Source: Alphaproteobacteria bacterium
GTDB taxonomy: Bacteria > Pseudomonadota > Alphaproteobacteria > Rs-D84
Assembly (NCBI GenBank): GCA_017427405.1
Contig: JAFRSV010000008.1
Span: 1-38,632 of the forward strand
Direction: 5' to 3'
Length of the DNA: 38,632 nucleotides
Below are positions 20,777-31,657 of this stretch, piece by piece. The notes beneath the pieces are model-generated. The model was not told the origin of the DNA and searched no databases. It saw only the letters and a program-made list of their open reading frames with translations. The translations under genes and the position numbers were made by a program. Within the stretch, counting starts at the first letter, position 1; each line of letters opens with the position of its first letter.

Positions 20777-20853
20777 CGGGGCGTAGCTCAGTCTGGTAGA
20801 GTACTTGCTTTGGGAGCAAGGTGTCGAAGGTTCGAATCCTTTCGCCCCGACCA
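20777..20853 (+). tRNA. tRNA-Pro (anticodon TGG)
   Basis: 77 bases with encoded CCA. Acceptor stem CGGGGCG/CGCCCCG is perfect; the anticodon stem-loop CTTGC-TTTGGGA-GCAAG gives anticodon TGG; the T arm contains GGTTCGAATCC. The 3' end is the integration site of the element that follows. Confidence 0.97.
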
Positions 20854-20854
20854 G
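20838..20854 (+). other. attL, direct repeat in the tRNA 3' end
   Basis: CCTTTCGCCCCGACCAG, covering the T-arm/acceptor 3' strand and CCA. An exact 17-base copy is at 31376-31392. Insertion leaves the tRNA gene intact, as is usual for tyrosine integrases. Confidence 0.9.
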
Positions 20855-20897: not shown

Positions 20898-21000
20898 TTT
20901 TAGATTGGTCCCGACCAAAAAACACTAAAAACCAGGGGAATCTAACACTTTTTATTTTCACTTTCATCAAAAAACAATAAAAAACAACGGGGTGAAAACA

Positions 21001-22572
21001 ATGGTTAAAAAGTGTATGTCATATTGTAATACCGACAAATATATCAAGTTGCGGAACAATATTTTTTATTTTACAATGGAATTACCAAGAAAAAATGGTA
21101 AAAGACGGTTCTTTTGTAAATCGTTACATACCTATAATTATTATGAAGCACGGGAAAAGGCAAAAATAATGGTGGAAAAGATACACAATTTTGACACTAA
21201 AAAATTTATAAATGAAATCAATACGTTATTAGATTTGACCATTTTTGATTATGATACCGTTGGTGGTGGTAATTATGGATTTGCAGCACGTAGGGTATCA
21301 CCAAAAAACAACTTGGACTTGTTGGAACATTGGGTTAAATTAAATTCACAAAAGGATTTGGTGCAATTGGACCAATTAACCCCTGGGGAAAAAATTATAT
21401 ATAACCAATTTAACTTTTTTTCATCACAGGTATTGGACATCCTTAAAGACATCCAAGGGAAACAGTTAAATCAACAACCAATTCAACCAAAACCGATAAA
21501 AGATTATACCATTCGGGAAATTTTGGAATCAATGCTTAAAACAACGGGTGTTTCTGAACCACAAAAAGACCGTAAATTTCATATAACCCAAAAGAATTTG
21601 GAACAAATAAATATGAATATTGATTCAAATTATACTGATTTTTACAAACCAAACGTAATTCAAGACCTGTGTGATATCATAAGAAAAAATGCTAAAATAA
21701 ATGGTGATTCAAAACGTAAACATGTAAGATATATCAAAGAACTTATAACACACGCGAACGTTCTTGAACCGGATGTATATAAAACTAACTTATTGAATTT
21801 ATTACCTAAATTTGATAAAACCCCAAAATCTGAAAAGAATCCACATTTTCCGTATTCTGACGAACAATTATTAAAAATGTTCGACCCAACACAACCAGAA
21901 CACACTTATTTTAAGAAAAATCCAGATCAATTTTGGGTATGTATGATTGCACTATTTACAGGGTCAAGATTAAATGCAGTTGTAACATTACAATATGATG
22001 ACATTATTAAAAAAGACGGGATTGATTGTATTCAATTCATTGAAAATCACCCATTAAAAAAATTAAAAACCGAAGCATCGGAACGTATTGTTCCAATACC
22101 AAAACAATTATTAGATATGGGTTTTGTTCAATATTTTCAAAACCAGAAACAAAAATTAAAAAAGACGGGTTCCGATTTTATATTTCCAAAATGTCAAACC
22201 AAAAACGGCACTTTTAACGGAAAAGTTGTTGGACGTGGTGTATTATCATTTTTAACCGAAATTGGTATCAGGGGGTCAAATGATAAAAAGTTAGATTTTC
22301 ATTCGTTCCGCAAAAACGCGAGTTTAAGATTACAAAATGCAGGTGTAATCCAATCTTTTATAAATGATATTATTGGTTGGGAAGGAACCAACACAATGGA
22401 AAAATCCTATTCAAACTACACAATACCACAAATCAAAGAACAGGCAGATAAATTAAAATATGACTTTTTACAACCACATTTTGATAAATGGACGGAAATA
22501 ATGAAAAAAGTAAAATGTAGTAAAAAAAGACGTTCGGGAACTGGGAAAAGTGGGAACAAAGGGAATAAATGA
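21001..22572 (+). CDS. Tyrosine recombinase (integrase)
   Basis: 523 residues from the ATG at 21001, which has CGGGGTG 6 bases upstream; a GTG at 20992 overlaps that site. The C-terminal catalytic domain shows Arg323 in LFTGSRLNAVV (box I), His434 and Arg437 in HSFRKNASLRL (box II), Trp460 in IIGWEG where many members have His, and the nucleophile Tyr470 in EKSYSNY. The long N-terminal part (about 300 residues) contains an Arm-type/SAM-like DNA-binding region. Position next to the tRNA att site and orientation away from it are typical. It excises and integrates the element at tRNA-Pro. Length is above the usual 380-420 because of an extended N terminus. The C-terminal tail is basic (SKKRRSGTGKSGNKGNK). 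Confidence 0.93.
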   Translation: MVKKCMSYCNTDKYIKLRNNIFYFTMELPRKNGKRRFFCKSLHTYNYYEAREKAKIMVEKIHNFDTKKFINEINTLLDLTIFDYDTVGGGNYGFAARRVSPKNNLDLLEHWVKLNSQKDLVQLDQLTPGEKIIYNQFNFFSSQVLDILKDIQGKQLNQQPIQPKPIKDYTIREILESMLKTTGVSEPQKDRKFHITQKNLEQINMNIDSNYTDFYKPNVIQDLCDIIRKNAKINGDSKRKHVRYIKELITHANVLEPDVYKTNLLNLLPKFDKTPKSEKNPHFPYSDEQLLKMFDPTQPEHTYFKKNPDQFWVCMIALFTGSRLNAVVTLQYDDIIKKDGIDCIQFIENHPLKKLKTEASERIVPIPKQLLDMGFVQYFQNQKQKLKKTGSDFIFPKCQTKNGTFNGKVVGRGVLSFLTEIGIRGSNDKKLDFHSFRKNASLRLQNAGVIQSFINDIIGWEGTNTMEKSYSNYTIPQIKEQADKLKYDFLQPHFDKWTEIMKKVKCSKKRRSGTGKSGNKGNK

Positions 22573-22744
22573 TTCAAATTTAATTCCAGATTTGTCGAAC
22601 CATAAACAATAATAAATTACCCTTAAAAAAGTGTTCCAAGGTATCCAGTGTCAAATTTTAATGGTTTCTGTATGGTTCTATATGGGTCCGAAACGAAGAA
22701 TTTACGATTTTTTTCTAACAAACCAGCCCAGAAACAATAAAAAT

Positions 22745-22773
22745 TTGACTTTTTTGTTAAAATGTGATATAAT
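22745..22773 (+). promoter_or_regulatory. Strong promoter directing a very short transcript
   Basis: TTGACT (22745-22750), 17-base spacer, TATAAT (22768-22773). A hairpin with ten T residues follows within 55 bases, so transcripts from here would mostly end before the ATPase gene. Confidence 0.75.
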
Positions 22774-22786
22774 TCTTGGCAACAAA

Positions 22787-22828
22787 GGGGAATTTAATTA
22801 AATTTTAATTAACCCCTGTTTTTTTTTT
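22787..22828 (+). terminator. Attenuator-like hairpin between two promoters
   Basis: GGGG (22787-22790) pairs with CCCC (22813-22816); the inner TTAATTAA blocks pair as an AT-rich stem with a small bulge; ten T residues follow (22819-22828). It lies just after the predicted start of transcription from the 22745 promoter. Confidence 0.65.
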
Positions 22829-22839
22829 ACAAAAAATGA

Positions 22840-22845
22840 TATAAT
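22840..22845 (+). promoter_or_regulatory. Second -10 element, upstream of the ATPase gene
   Basis: TATAAT in the context GATATAATAGGCTTG, closely resembling the first -10 context GATATAATTCTTGG. The -35 region is weak (TGTTTT within the T tract). It is the likely start for the ATPase/nuclease mRNA. Confidence 0.5.
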
Positions 22846-22902
22846 AGGCTTGTCAAGTAAAAAAAATACATTATCATACAATGGAACAATAGGATTTTTA
22901 CG

Positions 22903-24201
22903 ATGAAAATAACCCTGAAAAATGTTGGCTATATCAAAAAAGCAGATATAACTCTGAATGGGTTAAATGTTATAGCGGGACCTAATGGGACAGGTAAAAG
23001 CACGGTTGGCAAAACCGTTTATACCATAATTAAGTCCGTTAGCAATAGCAAAAGAATTGTTTTTGAAAACCGCAGAATGCTTGTAGAAAGTATGTGCAGA
23101 ACATTGTTTTATAGTATTCAAAACAATTTGCAAAAATCTGATGCTAAATCAAGAAATCACGATGTAAGTATTTTATTAGAACGTTTTAATGCTAGTTTTG
23201 CAGAAACTTTGGTAAGATTGTTAAAAGAAGATAACTATTCCGAAGCACATAGGATAATTATTGCTCAAATCAATTTAATTGATACATTTTTAACTTTGGA
23301 TGAAAAAAGCAAGTTATCTGCAAAAAAATCATTAAATGACTTAATGGGTGTTTTTACAGACATATCAGAACAGGAAGAAATCAAAAATTCTTTGGAATTT
23401 ATGTATAACCAAATGTTCAGATTTCAAGTTAATAATTTAGGAACTCACGCTACGTCAGAAGTGGTACTTGATAATAATGGCGATAAATTGTTGGAATATA
23501 AAATTTCCAATAATGCAAATGTGTTACCATTTTCTGAACGTTTGTCGATAAAAATTAACGAAACTCTGAAACAACGTATTTTACCAGAAGTTACTTTCAT
23601 AGAAACACCTTTATTATTACAGGTGGCAAATGCCATTAATATACCGTATTATTGGAAAGATCTTTTAGATAAATTGAAGGTAAATTTCCAAAAAACACAG
23701 AATACCCTGTGTAAATCTGTATATAAAGATTTGTCTGATTTATTAAAAGGTGAATTGGTTTATATACCCGACAAACAGGATTTTTTCTTTGTACCTGCTA
23801 ATACAGATAATAATTTATATGTTGGCAATATGGCATCTGGTGAAAAAATGTTTGGTATTTTACAAAAGATGGCAAGATACGGCATGTTGTCATCTGACCA
23901 CATGTTCATTTTTGACGAACCAGAAAATCATTTACATCCAGAATGGCAAGTTAAATTAGCAGAATTGTTAATAACCTTACTTGAAAATGATGTTTCGGTC
24001 CTTTTAACAACACACAGTTCAATACTTATAAATGCTTTGCAAGAGTTTGCTCATGCAAAAAAACTGGAATCAAAGGTCAATTTCTACTTTGCCGACTTAA
24101 AAAAAGGCATAATAGATAACGTGGAAAATTTTGCTGAAAAAGAGGACGTGATATTCAAATCTTTTTATGATGCAGAAAATTTATTACCGGATATAGATTA
24201 A
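22903..24201 (+). CDS. AAA ATPase (OLD/RecF-like ABC type), first gene of a two-gene system
   Basis: 432 residues. Walker A GPNGTGKST at 26-34 near the N terminus; a long helical insertion; an ABC-type signature NMASGEKM (about 307-314); Walker B with Asp338-Glu339 in MFIFDEPENHLHPEWQ; and an H-loop His371 in LLTTHSS. This is the AAA_15/AAA_21 layout found in OLD, Septu PtuA, PARIS AriA and retron ATPases. No Toprim domain follows, and the protein ends about 60 residues after the H-loop. The stop overlaps the next start by one base (TAATG). In the named systems the ATPase senses phage or damaged DNA and controls a nuclease partner; that role is inferred here from architecture and island context. 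Confidence 0.88.
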   Translation: MKITLKNVGYIKKADITLNGLNVIAGPNGTGKSTVGKTVYTIIKSVSNSKRIVFENRRMLVESMCRTLFYSIQNNLQKSDAKSRNHDVSILLERFNASFAETLVRLLKEDNYSEAHRIIIAQINLIDTFLTLDEKSKLSAKKSLNDLMGVFTDISEQEEIKNSLEFMYNQMFRFQVNNLGTHATSEVVLDNNGDKLLEYKISNNANVLPFSERLSIKINETLKQRILPEVTFIETPLLLQVANAINIPYYWKDLLDKLKVNFQKTQNTLCKSVYKDLSDLLKGELVYIPDKQDFFFVPANTDNNLYVGNMASGEKMFGILQKMARYGMLSSDHMFIFDEPENHLHPEWQVKLAELLITLLENDVSVLLTTHSSILINALQEFAHAKKLESKVNFYFADLKKGIIDNVENFAEKEDVIFKSFYDAENLLPDID

Positions 24202-24734
24202 TGTTAGAAAAATCTGAATCATTACCAAGGAAAAAATGCACGCATTGTTCATTATGTGAACGTTGTTGTGCAGAAAACACGGAACGTGGATGGGAATGCA
24301 AGGACGCTAATTCTACACCACTTTTGAAACAAAAAATTTTTATTCAAGGTAAAGAGTTGTGTGGTAAATCAAACCCAGACGTTGATTGTATATATAAATA
24401 TAATGGTAAAGACTTGTTGGTTATAGAAATAAAAGCCCAACCAATTAAAAACATAGACCCAAAAGAATTACTAAATAAAATAAATTCGGTATATTCTAAT
24501 CTTGGGAATATGTCTTTAAACGCTTTTATTTTACAAATATCATCTAAACTAAATTCTAACAAGGCACCACATCAGTTGTTGTTGCATTGTCAGACAATGT
24601 TTAAAAGTATCGGCATTAATATAAACAAAGACATAATGTATAGCAGAAAACCAGAACTGAAACATATTCGTAATAAGTTTAAAGTTATTAAATGTAAAAA
24701 ATTAACTGAAGAAGAGATTTCGTCTATGTTATAG
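24201..24734 (+). CDS. Zinc-finger / PD-(D/E)XK-like partner of the ATPase
   Basis: 177 residues. The N terminus carries a dense Cys cluster, KKCTHCSLCERCC, with further Cys at 'GWECK', 'ELCGK' and 'VDCIY', a probable zinc-binding knuckle. It is followed by D60-V-D62 and VIEIKAQP with Glu76-x-Lys78, the D...E-x-K pattern of the PD-(D/E)XK nuclease fold on consecutive strands, then an amphipathic helix region. Translation is coupled to the ATPase. Septu pairs an ATPase with an HNH nuclease and PARIS with a Toprim protein; a PD-(D/E)XK partner with a Cys-cluster is not one I recognise. The catalytic assignment rests on the short motif only. Confidence 0.6.
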   Translation: MLEKSESLPRKKCTHCSLCERCCAENTERGWECKDANSTPLLKQKIFIQGKELCGKSNPDVDCIYKYNGKDLLVIEIKAQPIKNIDPKELLNKINSVYSNLGNMSLNAFILQISSKLNSNKAPHQLLLHCQTMFKSIGININKDIMYSRKPELKHIRNKFKVIKCKKLTEEEISSML

Positions 24735-25415: not shown

Positions 25416-26348
25416 CTAATTATCATTATAACCAAAATCCCGAGTTTTTAAAACTTCTTTCCAATAATTTTCACGTTCTAGTGCTTTGGTTTTCCCTAAC
25501 TCTGTCTTTGGGAATATTTCCATTATACTATATTGAAAGTTATCCTTAATATATTTAATCCCTTTTGTTTTGACTAATTCTTTTAATTTTTTATTTGGAT
25601 AATCCTTGTTTGTGTCATCATAACCTTTATTCAGATAAACAGACCAACGGCCATAAATTCCATTGTTTCCTGTTGCAGAACCTATGTATTGTTTCCCTGT
25701 ATTCATATCTGTTAACACATATACACCAAACACATTACTTAAATTCTCTTTCCAATCTCTGCTGTCTATCACTCGTTTCAAAGAATTATAATCTTTTCTA
25801 ACGTTTTCATATCCAGTAAACTTTTCTTCCATATTTAAATATGGTTCTGGTAAAATTTCTGACACAACAACACTATTTATAACATCATCTGATGTATAAT
25901 AAAACTGTTGGGGCTTGTTTGTGAAATTAACCACTAAACGACCATTAAATGATTCAAACTCTTTTAATTTTTTTGCGTTAGCATACCTGAAGTGTTCGTG
26001 TTTTACTTCATTAAAACCGTCTGCGTTTAAATCAATAATTTGGTAAGCACCTATAAATAACCATTTATGAGTATCTATTTCTATAAATTCAAAAACAACA
26101 TCTTCTAAACTTAACCGTTTCTTTTTTCCTGAACCCATAGACAATATAGCTTGGTCAAGAAACTTATCCTTATTCAGATACATTGTTTTAAAATCACGTA
26201 TCTTTCTTACTTTCTTGCCATGTTCCTGAACTTCATCTTGCCAAGATATATTAAACCTTAATTTACGTCGTTTGGTTGGGTAATTATTTTCAAAATTATT
26301 CTTATTAAGTCCGAATAAGATGTCAACTAGATGTAATTCAGTATTCAT
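25416..26348 (-). CDS. GIY-YIG nuclease family protein
   Basis: 310 residues from the ATG at 26346-26348 with AAAGGG upstream; an extension to 26405 would overlap the previous gene and is not used. The N-terminal 190 residues form a beta-rich domain of unknown function. The C-terminal domain begins GVYVLTDMNTGKQYIGSA, the GIY...YIG pair, followed by GIYGRWSVYL with the catalytic Arg, then 'YSIMEIFPKTE' and ALERENYWKEVL with the metal-binding Glu. All core residues of the superfamily are present. Such proteins act in restriction, repair or homing; no methyltransferase is nearby. It lies between a T5orf172-RAMA gene (10 bases upstream) and an unknown gene (3 bases downstream), all in one operon. 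Confidence 0.85.
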   Translation of the reverse strand: MNTELHLVDILFGLNKNNFENNYPTKRRKLRFNISWQDEVQEHGKKVRKIRDFKTMYLNKDKFLDQAILSMGSGKKKRLSLEDVVFEFIEIDTHKWLFIGAYQIIDLNADGFNEVKHEHFRYANAKKLKEFESFNGRLVVNFTNKPQQFYYTSDDVINSVVVSEILPEPYLNMEEKFTGYENVRKDYNSLKRVIDSRDWKENLSNVFGVYVLTDMNTGKQYIGSATGNNGIYGRWSVYLNKGYDDTNKDYPNKKLKELVKTKGIKYIKDNFQYSIMEIFPKTELGKTKALERENYWKEVLKTRDFGYNDN

Positions 26349-26358
26349 ATTATACCCT

Positions 26359-26988
26359 TTAATCGTTTGATTCTGGATATGGATAAGTTTCATCATAAAT
26401 ATCACGTAAATTTTTATTATTATAAGTCCAGTATTGACCTGGTTGAACGTAATACGGTAAATCCAATAATTCCTTTGTTAAAGCACTTAATGCGTATTCT
26501 TTATCATTATATAATACCTTTTTAGGACCAATAACACTAATTTTAATATCTGGGTCTTTAACATAAAACAGCTCCGAACCAACAGGTATTCCCATTTCTT
26601 CAAAATTAAATTGTGGTCTGTGAAATTGTTTAGCAGCGGATTTTTCTGCATCAGATATATTACGAAACAAAGCATCTTGAACAGTATTTGTTATTTCACT
26701 TGTTGAAAATTCCTTTAATAAAGGGATAACTTGGTCTGGTGCAACATTAAAAAATTCACGTTTTGGGTTAACCCGTTTATCCCGAAAAGCATTATGAATA
26801 ATTTGTTCGATTGTTGTGCAATCTTTAACTTCACCTGCCCACAAACATTGAAAAGGGAACGGAACACCAGTTGAATATAATTCAGACATTCTGGCATTCA
26901 AATCTTTACGTTGTGTTTTTCCAATTTTTATTAAATTTGGCATACCTTCATTAGCCAACACATAAACAATATTATATTTATCAGCCAT
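26359..26988 (-). CDS. T5orf172 (GIY-YIG type) nuclease-RAMA domain fusion
   Basis: 209 residues. Residues 6-90 match the T5orf172/MUG113 branch of GIY-YIG: NIVYVLANEGMPNLIKIGKT with the Y-V...I-K-I-G-K-T pair, 'DLNARMSELYSTGVPFPF' with the conserved Arg, and 'IIHNAFRDKRVNPKREFF' with conserved His/Arg/Glu. Residues about 128-205 match RAMA (restriction enzyme adenine methylase associated): MGIPVGSELFYV, 'VLYNDKEYALSALTKELL' and YWTYNNKNLRDI. RAMA is thought to recognise modified DNA, so the fusion looks like a modification-dependent nuclease or a sensor. First gene of the operon, with a good promoter upstream at 27041-27013 and AAAGGGA as ribosome site. Confidence 0.85.
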   Translation of the reverse strand: MADKYNIVYVLANEGMPNLIKIGKTQRKDLNARMSELYSTGVPFPFQCLWAGEVKDCTTIEQIIHNAFRDKRVNPKREFFNVAPDQVIPLLKEFSTSEITNTVQDALFRNISDAEKSAAKQFHRPQFNFEEMGIPVGSELFYVKDPDIKISVIGPKKVLYNDKEYALSALTKELLDLPYYVQPGQYWTYNNKNLRDIYDETYPYPESND

Positions 26989-29043: not shown

Positions 29044-30987
29044 TTACACGTTTTCTGTTCGTGTATCCAAAAAATCATCCCCGAAAACACGCGTTATATC
29101 AAACACATATACTCCACGATAGATACCGTCTTTATCAATTCGTCGTTTTTGTGTATAACGGTCTTTGGAATTACCTGGGTTAATCCACCCAAGTTTTACC
29201 AATTCTTTAACCGCCCAAGAAGCATCAAGCCCATGAATTACATCTGTTTTGAAACGTTCAGGTGTAACCCATTGTTCACGACCTTGCAAAGACCACTCAC
29301 TGAAATATGGTGAAATTTTATATGCAGGGTCTTTTTCGAAGAAAAGTCGAACCTGTTGTTTGAGTTTGTCCAAATCTGACATTCGTTCTGGATTATTATT
29401 CCATTCGTTAAACAATTGGCGAATGGCATCTGTTGCAGAACCTTTTTTCCAACCAGTAATTCCCCATTCGGTTGCTTTTTCACCTGCAAAACCGACCAAA
29501 GCAAAACGATTTAGTGCTCGATTAGCAAGCCCACTAAGGTTATGCCCAAAATACACTTTTTGTTCTGTCAAATATTTATCAAATTCGTGCTGGGTTTTTA
29601 TTGGATGTTCAACCAAAAAATGCAAAAATATCAACAATGGCGAACCATAATATTTTTTCGTTTGTGATATAAAATATTCTGCAAAATCGGCACTGTTTGT
29701 AAAATCGTGAATATTGTCAAAAATACCATATTTTGAATTTTCTGATGTTGCCGGAATACTTAAACATCGAACTTCCTGACCATTTTTTGTGGTTTTATGT
29801 CCAGTTCGCATGTGTGATTCAAGATCTAATTCGCCCGTAGACAAGAACAAATTCAACCATTTTTTTACGCTCTTTGGTGCACCCCTTGAACTTGAACGAA
29901 TCTTTCCAAGTCCATTTGCAAGCATGTATATTGTATCACCAATATCTGAACTGTCGGCTTGACCAATTTCATCCAATACTAATAAAAGGTCGTTATGATT
30001 TTCGGCAACAGATTCTAAACCGTTACTTGTGGCACGCCAGTTCTGCATATAATCAGGACTACCGCAAACAGATGTTGCAACCCTTAATAATGTCGTTTTA
30101 CCACAAGACGACTGACCATAAAAGTGAAATCCACCACCCTCAAGCCCACACAATTTTAATAATGGTGCTGCAAAAGCACAACTGACGGCAAAAATCAATC
30201 TTTTGTTTCCTTCACAATATTTTCCAATATTTTCTATCCAAGGTGCTAAACCGTTTTTACTTTCAAACCCAGCCGATGCTTTTATATTAAAATATGCATC
30301 GTCATTTTTACCAATTGGCAGACCAGGCAATCCAAAACATTTATTATGCCACCCTGTTTGGGTCACTTCTGTTACTGTTCTTATCGTTCCAGATTCTTTA
30401 AAAAAATCTGTTAATTTTTCACCGTTACGAATTCGCAACCCACGTTTTGCAAGGATTGTTACACAATCTTGACCACAAGGGACTTTGCCCAAAAACGAAT
30501 TTAATCGAACAATCGCATTTTGTCCTTGTCCGGCTAAATTTGTAAAATGAACCAAAAAACCCCAATTATCATTATCTGTATCATGTATATTTGCCACTAT
30601 ATAAAGATACCCGGATATTCTGCTTAACGAATAAAACGGTTTCATGTCTGGCTTGGTAATATGCACGACATGATATAAACCACCAGACAAAATCATAAAA
30701 TCTTTTGGAACTCCAACCCCATAAATCATATCCTGGACGTGTCGGTTGAATTTGAATTCTTCTTCCGTAAAAACGATATGATTTTTATTAAAATTATTTG
30801 GATTTATGGGGACCAATTGATTTGTCTGTTCATCAGCAGATGGTTTGTTTACTAAAACCGGTTCAATCGATATTTCTGTCGGCTGAATCGATTTTTTGCT
30901 TTCAACAAGTTCCGTATTCAATACATCAACATTAAAATTCAATGGTTGTTGCAAACCTAAGTTTTGCGTAATATCCATACTTTGCAT
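29044..30987 (-). CDS. DUF927 helicase/primase-type ATPase
   Basis: 647 residues; start at the ATG at 30985-30987 with a good GAGGT site 8 bases upstream. N-terminal 90 residues are low-complexity. From about 100 a DUF927 domain: 'GVGVPKDFMILSGGLYHV', 'VTEVTQTGWHN', then the P-loop GQSSCGKTT (291-299, Lys297), Walker B LLLVLDEIGQ (Asp339-Glu340) and 'LSTGELDLESHMR'. A C-terminal winged-helix-like region (about 570-640) follows. DUF927 proteins occur in integrative elements, plasmids and phages, and are thought to be replicative helicases like SF3/primase-linked ATPases. Here it is the only replication ATPase of the island and probably allows its replication after excision. Confidence 0.85.
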   Translation of the reverse strand: MQSMDITQNLGLQQPLNFNVDVLNTELVESKKSIQPTEISIEPVLVNKPSADEQTNQLVPINPNNFNKNHIVFTEEEFKFNRHVQDMIYGVGVPKDFMILSGGLYHVVHITKPDMKPFYSLSRISGYLYIVANIHDTDNDNWGFLVHFTNLAGQGQNAIVRLNSFLGKVPCGQDCVTILAKRGLRIRNGEKLTDFFKESGTIRTVTEVTQTGWHNKCFGLPGLPIGKNDDAYFNIKASAGFESKNGLAPWIENIGKYCEGNKRLIFAVSCAFAAPLLKLCGLEGGGFHFYGQSSCGKTTLLRVATSVCGSPDYMQNWRATSNGLESVAENHNDLLLVLDEIGQADSSDIGDTIYMLANGLGKIRSSSRGAPKSVKKWLNLFLSTGELDLESHMRTGHKTTKNGQEVRCLSIPATSENSKYGIFDNIHDFTNSADFAEYFISQTKKYYGSPLLIFLHFLVEHPIKTQHEFDKYLTEQKVYFGHNLSGLANRALNRFALVGFAGEKATEWGITGWKKGSATDAIRQLFNEWNNNPERMSDLDKLKQQVRLFFEKDPAYKISPYFSEWSLQGREQWVTPERFKTDVIHGLDASWAVKELVKLGWINPGNSKDRYTQKRRIDKDGIYRGVYVFDITRVFGDDFLDTRTENV

Positions 30988-31375: not shown

Positions 31376-31392
31376 CCTTTCGCCCCGACCAG
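31376..31392 (+). other. attR, direct repeat of the tRNA-Pro 3' end
   Basis: CCTTTCGCCCCGACCAG, identical to 20838-20854 over 17 bases. It marks the right end of the element. Confidence 0.9.
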
Positions 31393-31394
31393 GT

Positions 31395-31437
31395 TTAACA
31401 AAAAAATACCACCGAAATGGTGGTATTTTTTTGTTAA
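31395..31437. terminator. Perfect 19-bp hairpin terminator just after attR
   Basis: TTAACAAAAAAATACCACC (31395-31413) pairs fully with its complement (31419-31437) around GAAAT. The A7 and T7 tracts allow termination in both directions. It occupies the same distance after the tRNA end as the terminator at 20869, so it probably served the tRNA before the present element inserted. Confidence 0.88.
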
Positions 31438-31573
31438 ATTATGGTGGAACTGTGAATTCAAACGACAAAAAATTTGTCAATGTTCGAATCTTTCCCTCGG
31501 CACGGGTGCCTGCGGGGCATTCGTGACGGTTCGCCGGCATCCATATTTGGATGCACGGCTTGCTTACTCATTG
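31438..31573. other. Short remnant between two tRNA-end copies
   Basis: About 135 bases without a gene. It contains GTTCGAATCTTTCCCTCGG (31482-31500), recalling the T arm of the tRNA, and a CATCCATATTTGGATG palindrome (31538-31553). It looks like what is left of an older insertion at tRNA-Pro. Confidence 0.45.
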
Positions 31574-31613
31574 TCGCCCCGACCAGAAATTTAAATCGGC
31601 GTGTGGCCGATTT
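31574..31613 (+). other. Third copy of the tRNA end with its own terminator
   Basis: TCGCCCCGACCAG (31574-31586) repeats 13 bases of the att core; AAATCGGC-GTGTG-GCCGATTT (31593-31613) follows at the usual distance. This is probably the native end of the tRNA-Pro locus, separated from the tRNA by two successive insertions. Confidence 0.7.
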
Positions 31614-31657
31614 TAATTTGTGTCTTGGGAATGCCGTGGCGATATTCCAAGTTTAAT

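Follow-up and report, generated by a model that had tools for sequence, protein, structure and literature searches.

What is the function of two overlapping genes, here called gene A and gene B, that encode an ATPase and a small putative nuclease on contig JAFRSV010000008.1 of an Alphaproteobacteria bacterium (assembly GCA_017427405.1)? The stretch analysed, hereafter the window, comprises positions 1 to 38,632 of this contig, which is contig 7 of a 1.06-Mb genome in 16 contigs. The best overall explanation, which we consider fairly probable, is a mobile two-gene phage-defence module acting by abortive infection, in which the ATPase licenses a nuclease that most likely cuts host RNA. An earlier examination of this DNA without database searches (the sequence-only reading) had reported both open reading frames (ORFs) and their overlap, and both genes are indeed present on the plus strand, sharing one base in a TAATG junction (...gattaATG). 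The features of the pair are the following.

22903..24201, plus strand: gene A, OLD/ABC-type ATPase of 432 aa, proposed sensor and regulator.
24201..24734, plus strand: gene B, Cys-type PD-(D/E)XK-like effector of 177 aa, proposed nuclease.
24255..24299, plus strand: codons C19 to C33 of the proposed metal site (C19, C22 and C33); the fourth cysteine, C165, is encoded at 24693-24695.
24384..24434, plus strand: codons D62 to K78 of the putative catalytic residues D62...E76-x-K78.
22573..22902, plus strand: intergenic region 5' of gene A; best sigma-70-like site at 22745-22773 (11/12).

The sequence-only reading had put forward a two-gene unit of an ATPase and a D...ExK protein on a mobile island, which is borne out by recurrence, the partner motif, co-divergence and the surrounding element. 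ATPase searches within the genus retrieved nine pairs including that of the window (8 of 97 genomes). Scanning the genome collection with a profile yielded 62 ATPase loci, of which the 43 with long matches were taken, while 19 loci with short matches around Walker B (L069-L087; E 1e-7 to 6e-4) were left out; one of the 43 (L039) stops at a contig edge, and the other 42 were read on their downstream side. The survey of other genomes suggested at the outset thus confirmed that the pair recurs: 41 of the 42 ATPase genes are followed by a small gene that overlaps them or starts within about 25 bases, the exception being L068. The strict motif D-x(10-14)-hydrophobic-E-x-K was found in 38 of the 42 partners; of the control ORFs (140-230 aa), 1 of 36 carried it, as did 4 of the 40 ORFs in the flanks. 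A looser form gave 39/42, 4/36 and 13/40, respectively. The partner in L040 is cut by the contig end, yet the motif is present. In three Endomicrobia loci (L058, L060 and L061) the partner keeps D and E, and E-x-T replaces E-x-K; a nearby lysine may substitute there, or the enzyme may be inactive.

Searches that started from the effector profile led to the same arrangement, with an ATPase adjoining the effector in 12 of 13 retrieved loci, nine of these 12 having served to build the profile. Of the four new loci, L019, L021 and L088 have the ATPase, and the remaining one, L089, matches over 50 residues and contains a stop. Profiles of the Cys-type and the other partners align with their motifs in register (hhalign, 96.4%, E 1.4e-9). 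Full-length distant ATPases were found in five plasmid records and one phage record, and the partners in four of these records were read by eye. Three such relatives (L004, L006 and L007) have a D...EFK partner, and the partner in the plasmid relative L005 matches PD-T4-4_B (3.6e-93). The two genes also diverge together: ATPase and partner distances are strongly correlated over 33 pairs (Mantel r 0.905, with none of 5000 permutations as high). The ratio of nonsynonymous to synonymous substitution rates (dN/dS) is below 1 for both genes in eight pairs, not all independent (0.03-0.25 for the ATPase, 0.07-0.55 for the effector). A second, diverged pair occurs in the genome of the window itself (L003, 918-2763, minus strand; ATPase identity 38%), near an ORF that resembles a tyrosine recombinase when read by eye.

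Conservation across the relatives refines the residue list of the sequence-only reading. D62, E76 and K78 are invariant in all 36 rows of the effector alignment (A3), which leaves out L039, L040, L055, L058, L060, L061, L066 and L068, the three E-x-T partners among them. C33 is kept in 34 and C165 in 35 of these rows; C19 and C22 are kept in 21 of the 36 and in every row of the Cys-type alignment, where all four cysteines occur together (23/23). The cluster originally noticed, C13, C16, C19, C22 and C23, is present in gene B, but three of its members are not conserved (C13 and C16 in 3/36 each, C23 in 2/36). Similarly, the proposed D60/D62...E76-x-K78 signature is there in full, with D60 found in only two of 36 rows. 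For gene A, the Walker A, signature, Walker B and H-loop motifs claimed earlier are all upheld by 38 aligned ATPases (alignment A4, without L055, L062 and L065-L068): G26, G31 and K32 of Walker A, G313 and K315 of the signature-like SGxK, D338 and E339 of Walker B and His371 of the H-loop are each kept in 38/38, and S312 in 37/38.

The Pfam matches of gene A include AAA_21 (7.6e-17) and AAA_15 (1.9e-16), with no Toprim family among all 13. In PADLOC, used here without a cut-off, the top match is HEC-02A (2.7e-26), gene A being matched also by HEC-02B (4.8e-17), by PD-T4-4_A (6.1e-25 over residues 1-380, plus 2.5e-21) and, over its ATPase domain, by the GajA models (6.7e-13). In viral contigs, the single gene A protein found no relative, and the ATPase profile gave eight matches, all short and C-terminal.

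Gene B, in turn, is matched by little. In the AlphaFold2 model (predicted local distance difference test score, pLDDT, 78.6), the motif lies at two strands, 63-67 and 71-78, and many of the rows in its fold search (VIA) are PD-(D/E)XK enzymes. The restriction-endonuclease core expected from the sequence is compatible with this model, although the fold search backs it weakly. Against viral models, no row was below 0.001, with one PD-(D/E)XK nuclease at 0.07. Rows for Rag GTPases were dismissed, as a matter of judgement, as a common alpha/beta arrangement. Sequence searches of the PDB with gene B alone returned two ribosomal proteins and, at 0.79, Shedu; its profile retrieved nothing but Sir2 chains at 0.36. 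The Cys-type gene B passes the cut-off of no Pfam or NCBIfam model and has no convincing match in PADLOC or PHROGs, its relatives having been compared with Pfam and PADLOC and the window pair alone with PHROGs. The weak matches comprise Pus10 (0.013) for gene B and, for its relatives, alpha-kinase (0.0023, L013), Cas8b (0.0032, L027) and PDC-M15A (0.0033, L044). As a single query, gene B gave no match in plasmids, one weak match in phages (coverage 24%, E 0.2), no confirmed match in viral contigs and only the window's own copy among 398 genomes sampled from the phylum.

The pair lies on an integrated element with the following landmarks.

20777..20853, plus strand: tRNA-Pro (TGG), integration site of the element and the sole match in an Rfam scan.
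20838..20854, plus strand: attL, a 17-bp direct repeat at the 3' end of tRNA-Pro.
20992..22572, plus strand: tyrosine recombinase (integrase) of the element (Pfam Phage_integrase, 1e-12).
31376..31392, plus strand: attR, second copy of the 17-bp repeat, delimiting an element of about 10.5 kb.

In the sister species G521 (L100), the site is empty: the flanks are contiguous at the same tRNA, with 92.7% and 97.3% identity, and they overlap at the repeat. The G+C content is 28-31% over 21-29 kb and 36% up to 31 kb; elsewhere in the window, values of 42-49% prevail, apart from a few 1-kb steps at 33-41%. A related element resides beside tRNA-Gly in G471, sharing 91-98% identity with the region upstream of gene A from position 22623 on and differing in the DNA beyond the pair. 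Sigma-70-like sites are not enriched in the upstream region (11 versus a mean of 12.5 in shuffles).

Several other observations concern the element and its neighbourhood. A GIY-YIG gene (UzuA-like, 1.8e-47 in PADLOC) stands beside a T5orf172 gene (PDC-S57, 7.3e-71) at 25416-26988 on the minus strand, forming a candidate second defence locus. In place of these genes, the G471 element has another ORF, 240 aa long and containing an IEVT stretch (L008, 108-830), perhaps another nuclease as judged by eye. At 29044-30987 (minus strand), a DUF927 protein (4.4e-68), which in part resembles the SCC helicase Cch1 (3e-19, well short of the cut-off), is perhaps the replication protein of the element. In another sister species, G447 (L098, 1692-5604), the same tRNA-Pro is followed by about 1.5 kb of other DNA, and an additional 2-kb insertion interrupts the sequence that comes after attR in the window. 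Just beyond attR (31393-31640), short stretches, some on both strands, recur at many places in the genus and are possibly dispersed palindromic repeats; a 600-base query from this region matched 112 of 157 genus genomes at E<=0.001, mostly in pieces of 30-60 bases.

In the mechanism that we favour, gene A would act as a dimeric ABC-type ATPase that detects infection and, in complex with gene B, holds or licenses the latter. Gene B would be a small metal-dependent nuclease with D62, E76 and K78 as catalytic residues; a site of four cysteines (C19, C22, C33 and C165), which probably binds zinc, would clasp its N-terminal to its C-terminal part. Upon infection, the ATPase would switch the nuclease on, most likely a host RNA (tRNA or rRNA) would be cut, and the resulting stop of translation would abort the infection. 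This scheme draws by analogy on WonAB, in which both genes are necessary and translation ceases while genomic DNA stays intact (PMC12137116). The residues worth testing are D62, E76, K78, C19, C22, C33 and C165 of gene B and K32 and E339 of the ATPase.

The strongest alternative, possible although we hold it unlikely, keeps the module unchanged and lets the nuclease cut DNA, either the phage genome or the host chromosome, as a restriction-type or suicidal DNase. The PD-(D/E)XK fold mostly acts on DNA, and the fold-search rows of gene B include the DNA enzymes EcoO109I, McrC and DdmD as well as the nuclease Can2. Type I and III restriction genes also adjoin the relatives. For 108 ORFs flanking 20 Cys-type loci (window excluded), the Pfam matches listed include ResIII (6), Resolvase (4) and Phage_integrase (2) along with housekeeping genes, and the PADLOC matches listed include models for restriction enzymes and methylases of types I, II, IIG and III; these tallies cover the first 25 of 101 and of 225 families, the control tally all 18. 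No PADLOC restriction or methylase model was found in 133 control ORFs, taken from arbitrary preset stretches of contig 1 in 20 genus genomes (three nonexistent, and L113 having no ORF of 110 aa), a control imperfectly matched to the Cys-type loci, several of which belong to other groups. The PADLOC model mad3 matched four ORFs in the Cys-type flanks and four in the controls. The restriction genes near relatives count equally in favour of the defence module preferred above. An RNA target is favoured over DNA by WonAB, which halts translation and leaves genomic DNA intact, with rRNA or tRNA suggested as its target (PMC12137116), by the cleavage of tRNA by the PARIS effector AriB, a Toprim protein (PMC12839542), and by the reported cleavage of tRNA-Tyr by Septu (PMC13096335).

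Somewhat less likely again would be a distinct, unnamed system in which the ATPase opens or senses the Cys4 zinc clasp, so that the nuclease is activated by infection-induced cycling of the ATPase or by an altered metal or redox state; sensor and nuclease genes would be exchanged at the junction, thereby diversifying specificity.

The closest named ATPase relative of gene A is L026 (99%; bin "uncultured Alphaproteobacteria bacterium isolate Red_deer_3_mag_193"). Its divergence from the window at synonymous sites (dS) is 0.17 for the ATPase and 0.67 for the effector, whereas for L033 versus L034 the values are 0.53 and 0.02. The divergence shifts at the junction in both directions, as if sensor and effector genes had been exchanged separately. 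Because the two close pairs diverge unequally across the junction, the interchangeability of sensor and effector would become testable.

It is improbable that the pair is an addiction (toxin-antitoxin) module serving to maintain the integrative element, with the ATPase as antitoxin. The overlap of genes A and B, their place on a 10.5-kb integrative element and the deposition of PARIS AriA chains as "AriA antitoxin" would fit it, but the toxicity of the WonAB effector requires the ATPase, beyond mere neutralising (PMC12137116), and restriction genes occur in the relatives' flanks. Finally, it is hardly credible that the genes serve housekeeping or DNA repair, as a Rad50/SbcC-like protein and its nuclease partner with no defence role, given the patchy occurrence (effector profile in 10 of 157 genus genomes), the low-G+C integrated element and the cargo beyond the pair that differs in a sister species.

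Beyond the genus, the effector profile was found in 12 of 191 genomes of an order sample, two of them outside the genus (one being the weak L089), and in 3 of 385 genomes of a class sample. On the 38-row ATPase tree, the ATPases with Cys-type partners were not recovered as one group: they split into a group of 13 rows (99/99) and another of 8 (96/92), which joins the three Endomicrobia (99/96). Because the window ATPase clusters with bins named Elusimicrobium and Fibrimonadales, transfer between phyla is suggested, provided that these bins are correct. The hosts of the Cys-type branch comprise small-genome Alphaproteobacteria and bins named Rickettsiales, Elusimicrobium and Fibrimonadales, with bin errors possible.

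How does the pair compare with known systems? The Septu effector PtuB is an HNH nuclease. At E<=1, no HNH model, unlike Septu (PtuAB), and no Toprim model, unlike PARIS (AriAB), was found among the Pfam, PADLOC and NCBIfam matches of gene B, which is instead a PD-(D/E)XK-like protein. Gabija combines a GajA with fused Toprim and a GajB helicase, whereas gene A lacks Toprim and its downstream gene has no helicase match. HEC-02 provides the best PADLOC label for gene A, but none of its models matches gene B, and no paper on it was found in the literature searched, which covers neither subscription papers nor preprints. PD-T4-4 of E. coli, whose nuclease class is given as PD(D/E)XK (PMC10952713), resembles the pair in its A component and through the PD-T4-4_B partner of the distant L005. 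Membership fails, as judged from sequence matches, because the B component is unmatched: gene B has no PD-T4-4_B match in PADLOC at E<=1, L005 alone among ten related partners matches that model at E<=10, and the Cys-type profile aligns with the L005 partner at just 3.5% (hhalign).

A close likeness is to WonAB from the Vibrio cholerae WASA-1 prophage, also a two-gene operon on a mobile element in which an OLD-type ABC ATPase precedes a small PD-(D/E)xK effector, both genes being required; compared by description only, WonB differs in its 16.1 kDa and catalytic K71, and no cysteine site is mentioned in the part of the source used (PMC12137116). WonAB has been assigned to a larger, still uncharacterised family, and every WonAB homologue detected is reported to fall among the homologues of another system, "OLD-ABC ATPase + novel REase" (PMC12137116). 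This system (Krishnan et al. 2020) shows the same pairing and predicted fold class as here, judging from the papers citing it (PMC12137116, PMC12409358). OLD-ABCs paired with PD-(D/E)XK REases have also been described as dyads (PMC12839542). The ATPase motifs and the adjacent D...E-x-K gene place the pair within this broad kind, and, since such pairs have been reported (PMC12137116, PMC12839542, PMC10952713), the novelty claimed in the sequence-only reading does not extend to the pairing. It holds for the effector branch, which has no convincing match in the four libraries; we recognised no paper on the Cys-type effector among those listed in the literature searches. The Cys-type pair has the look of a branch, so far without a label, of an anti-phage family recognised only recently, and it adds to the poorly characterised OLD-ABC/PD-(D/E)XK group a type of effector for which these libraries have no label.
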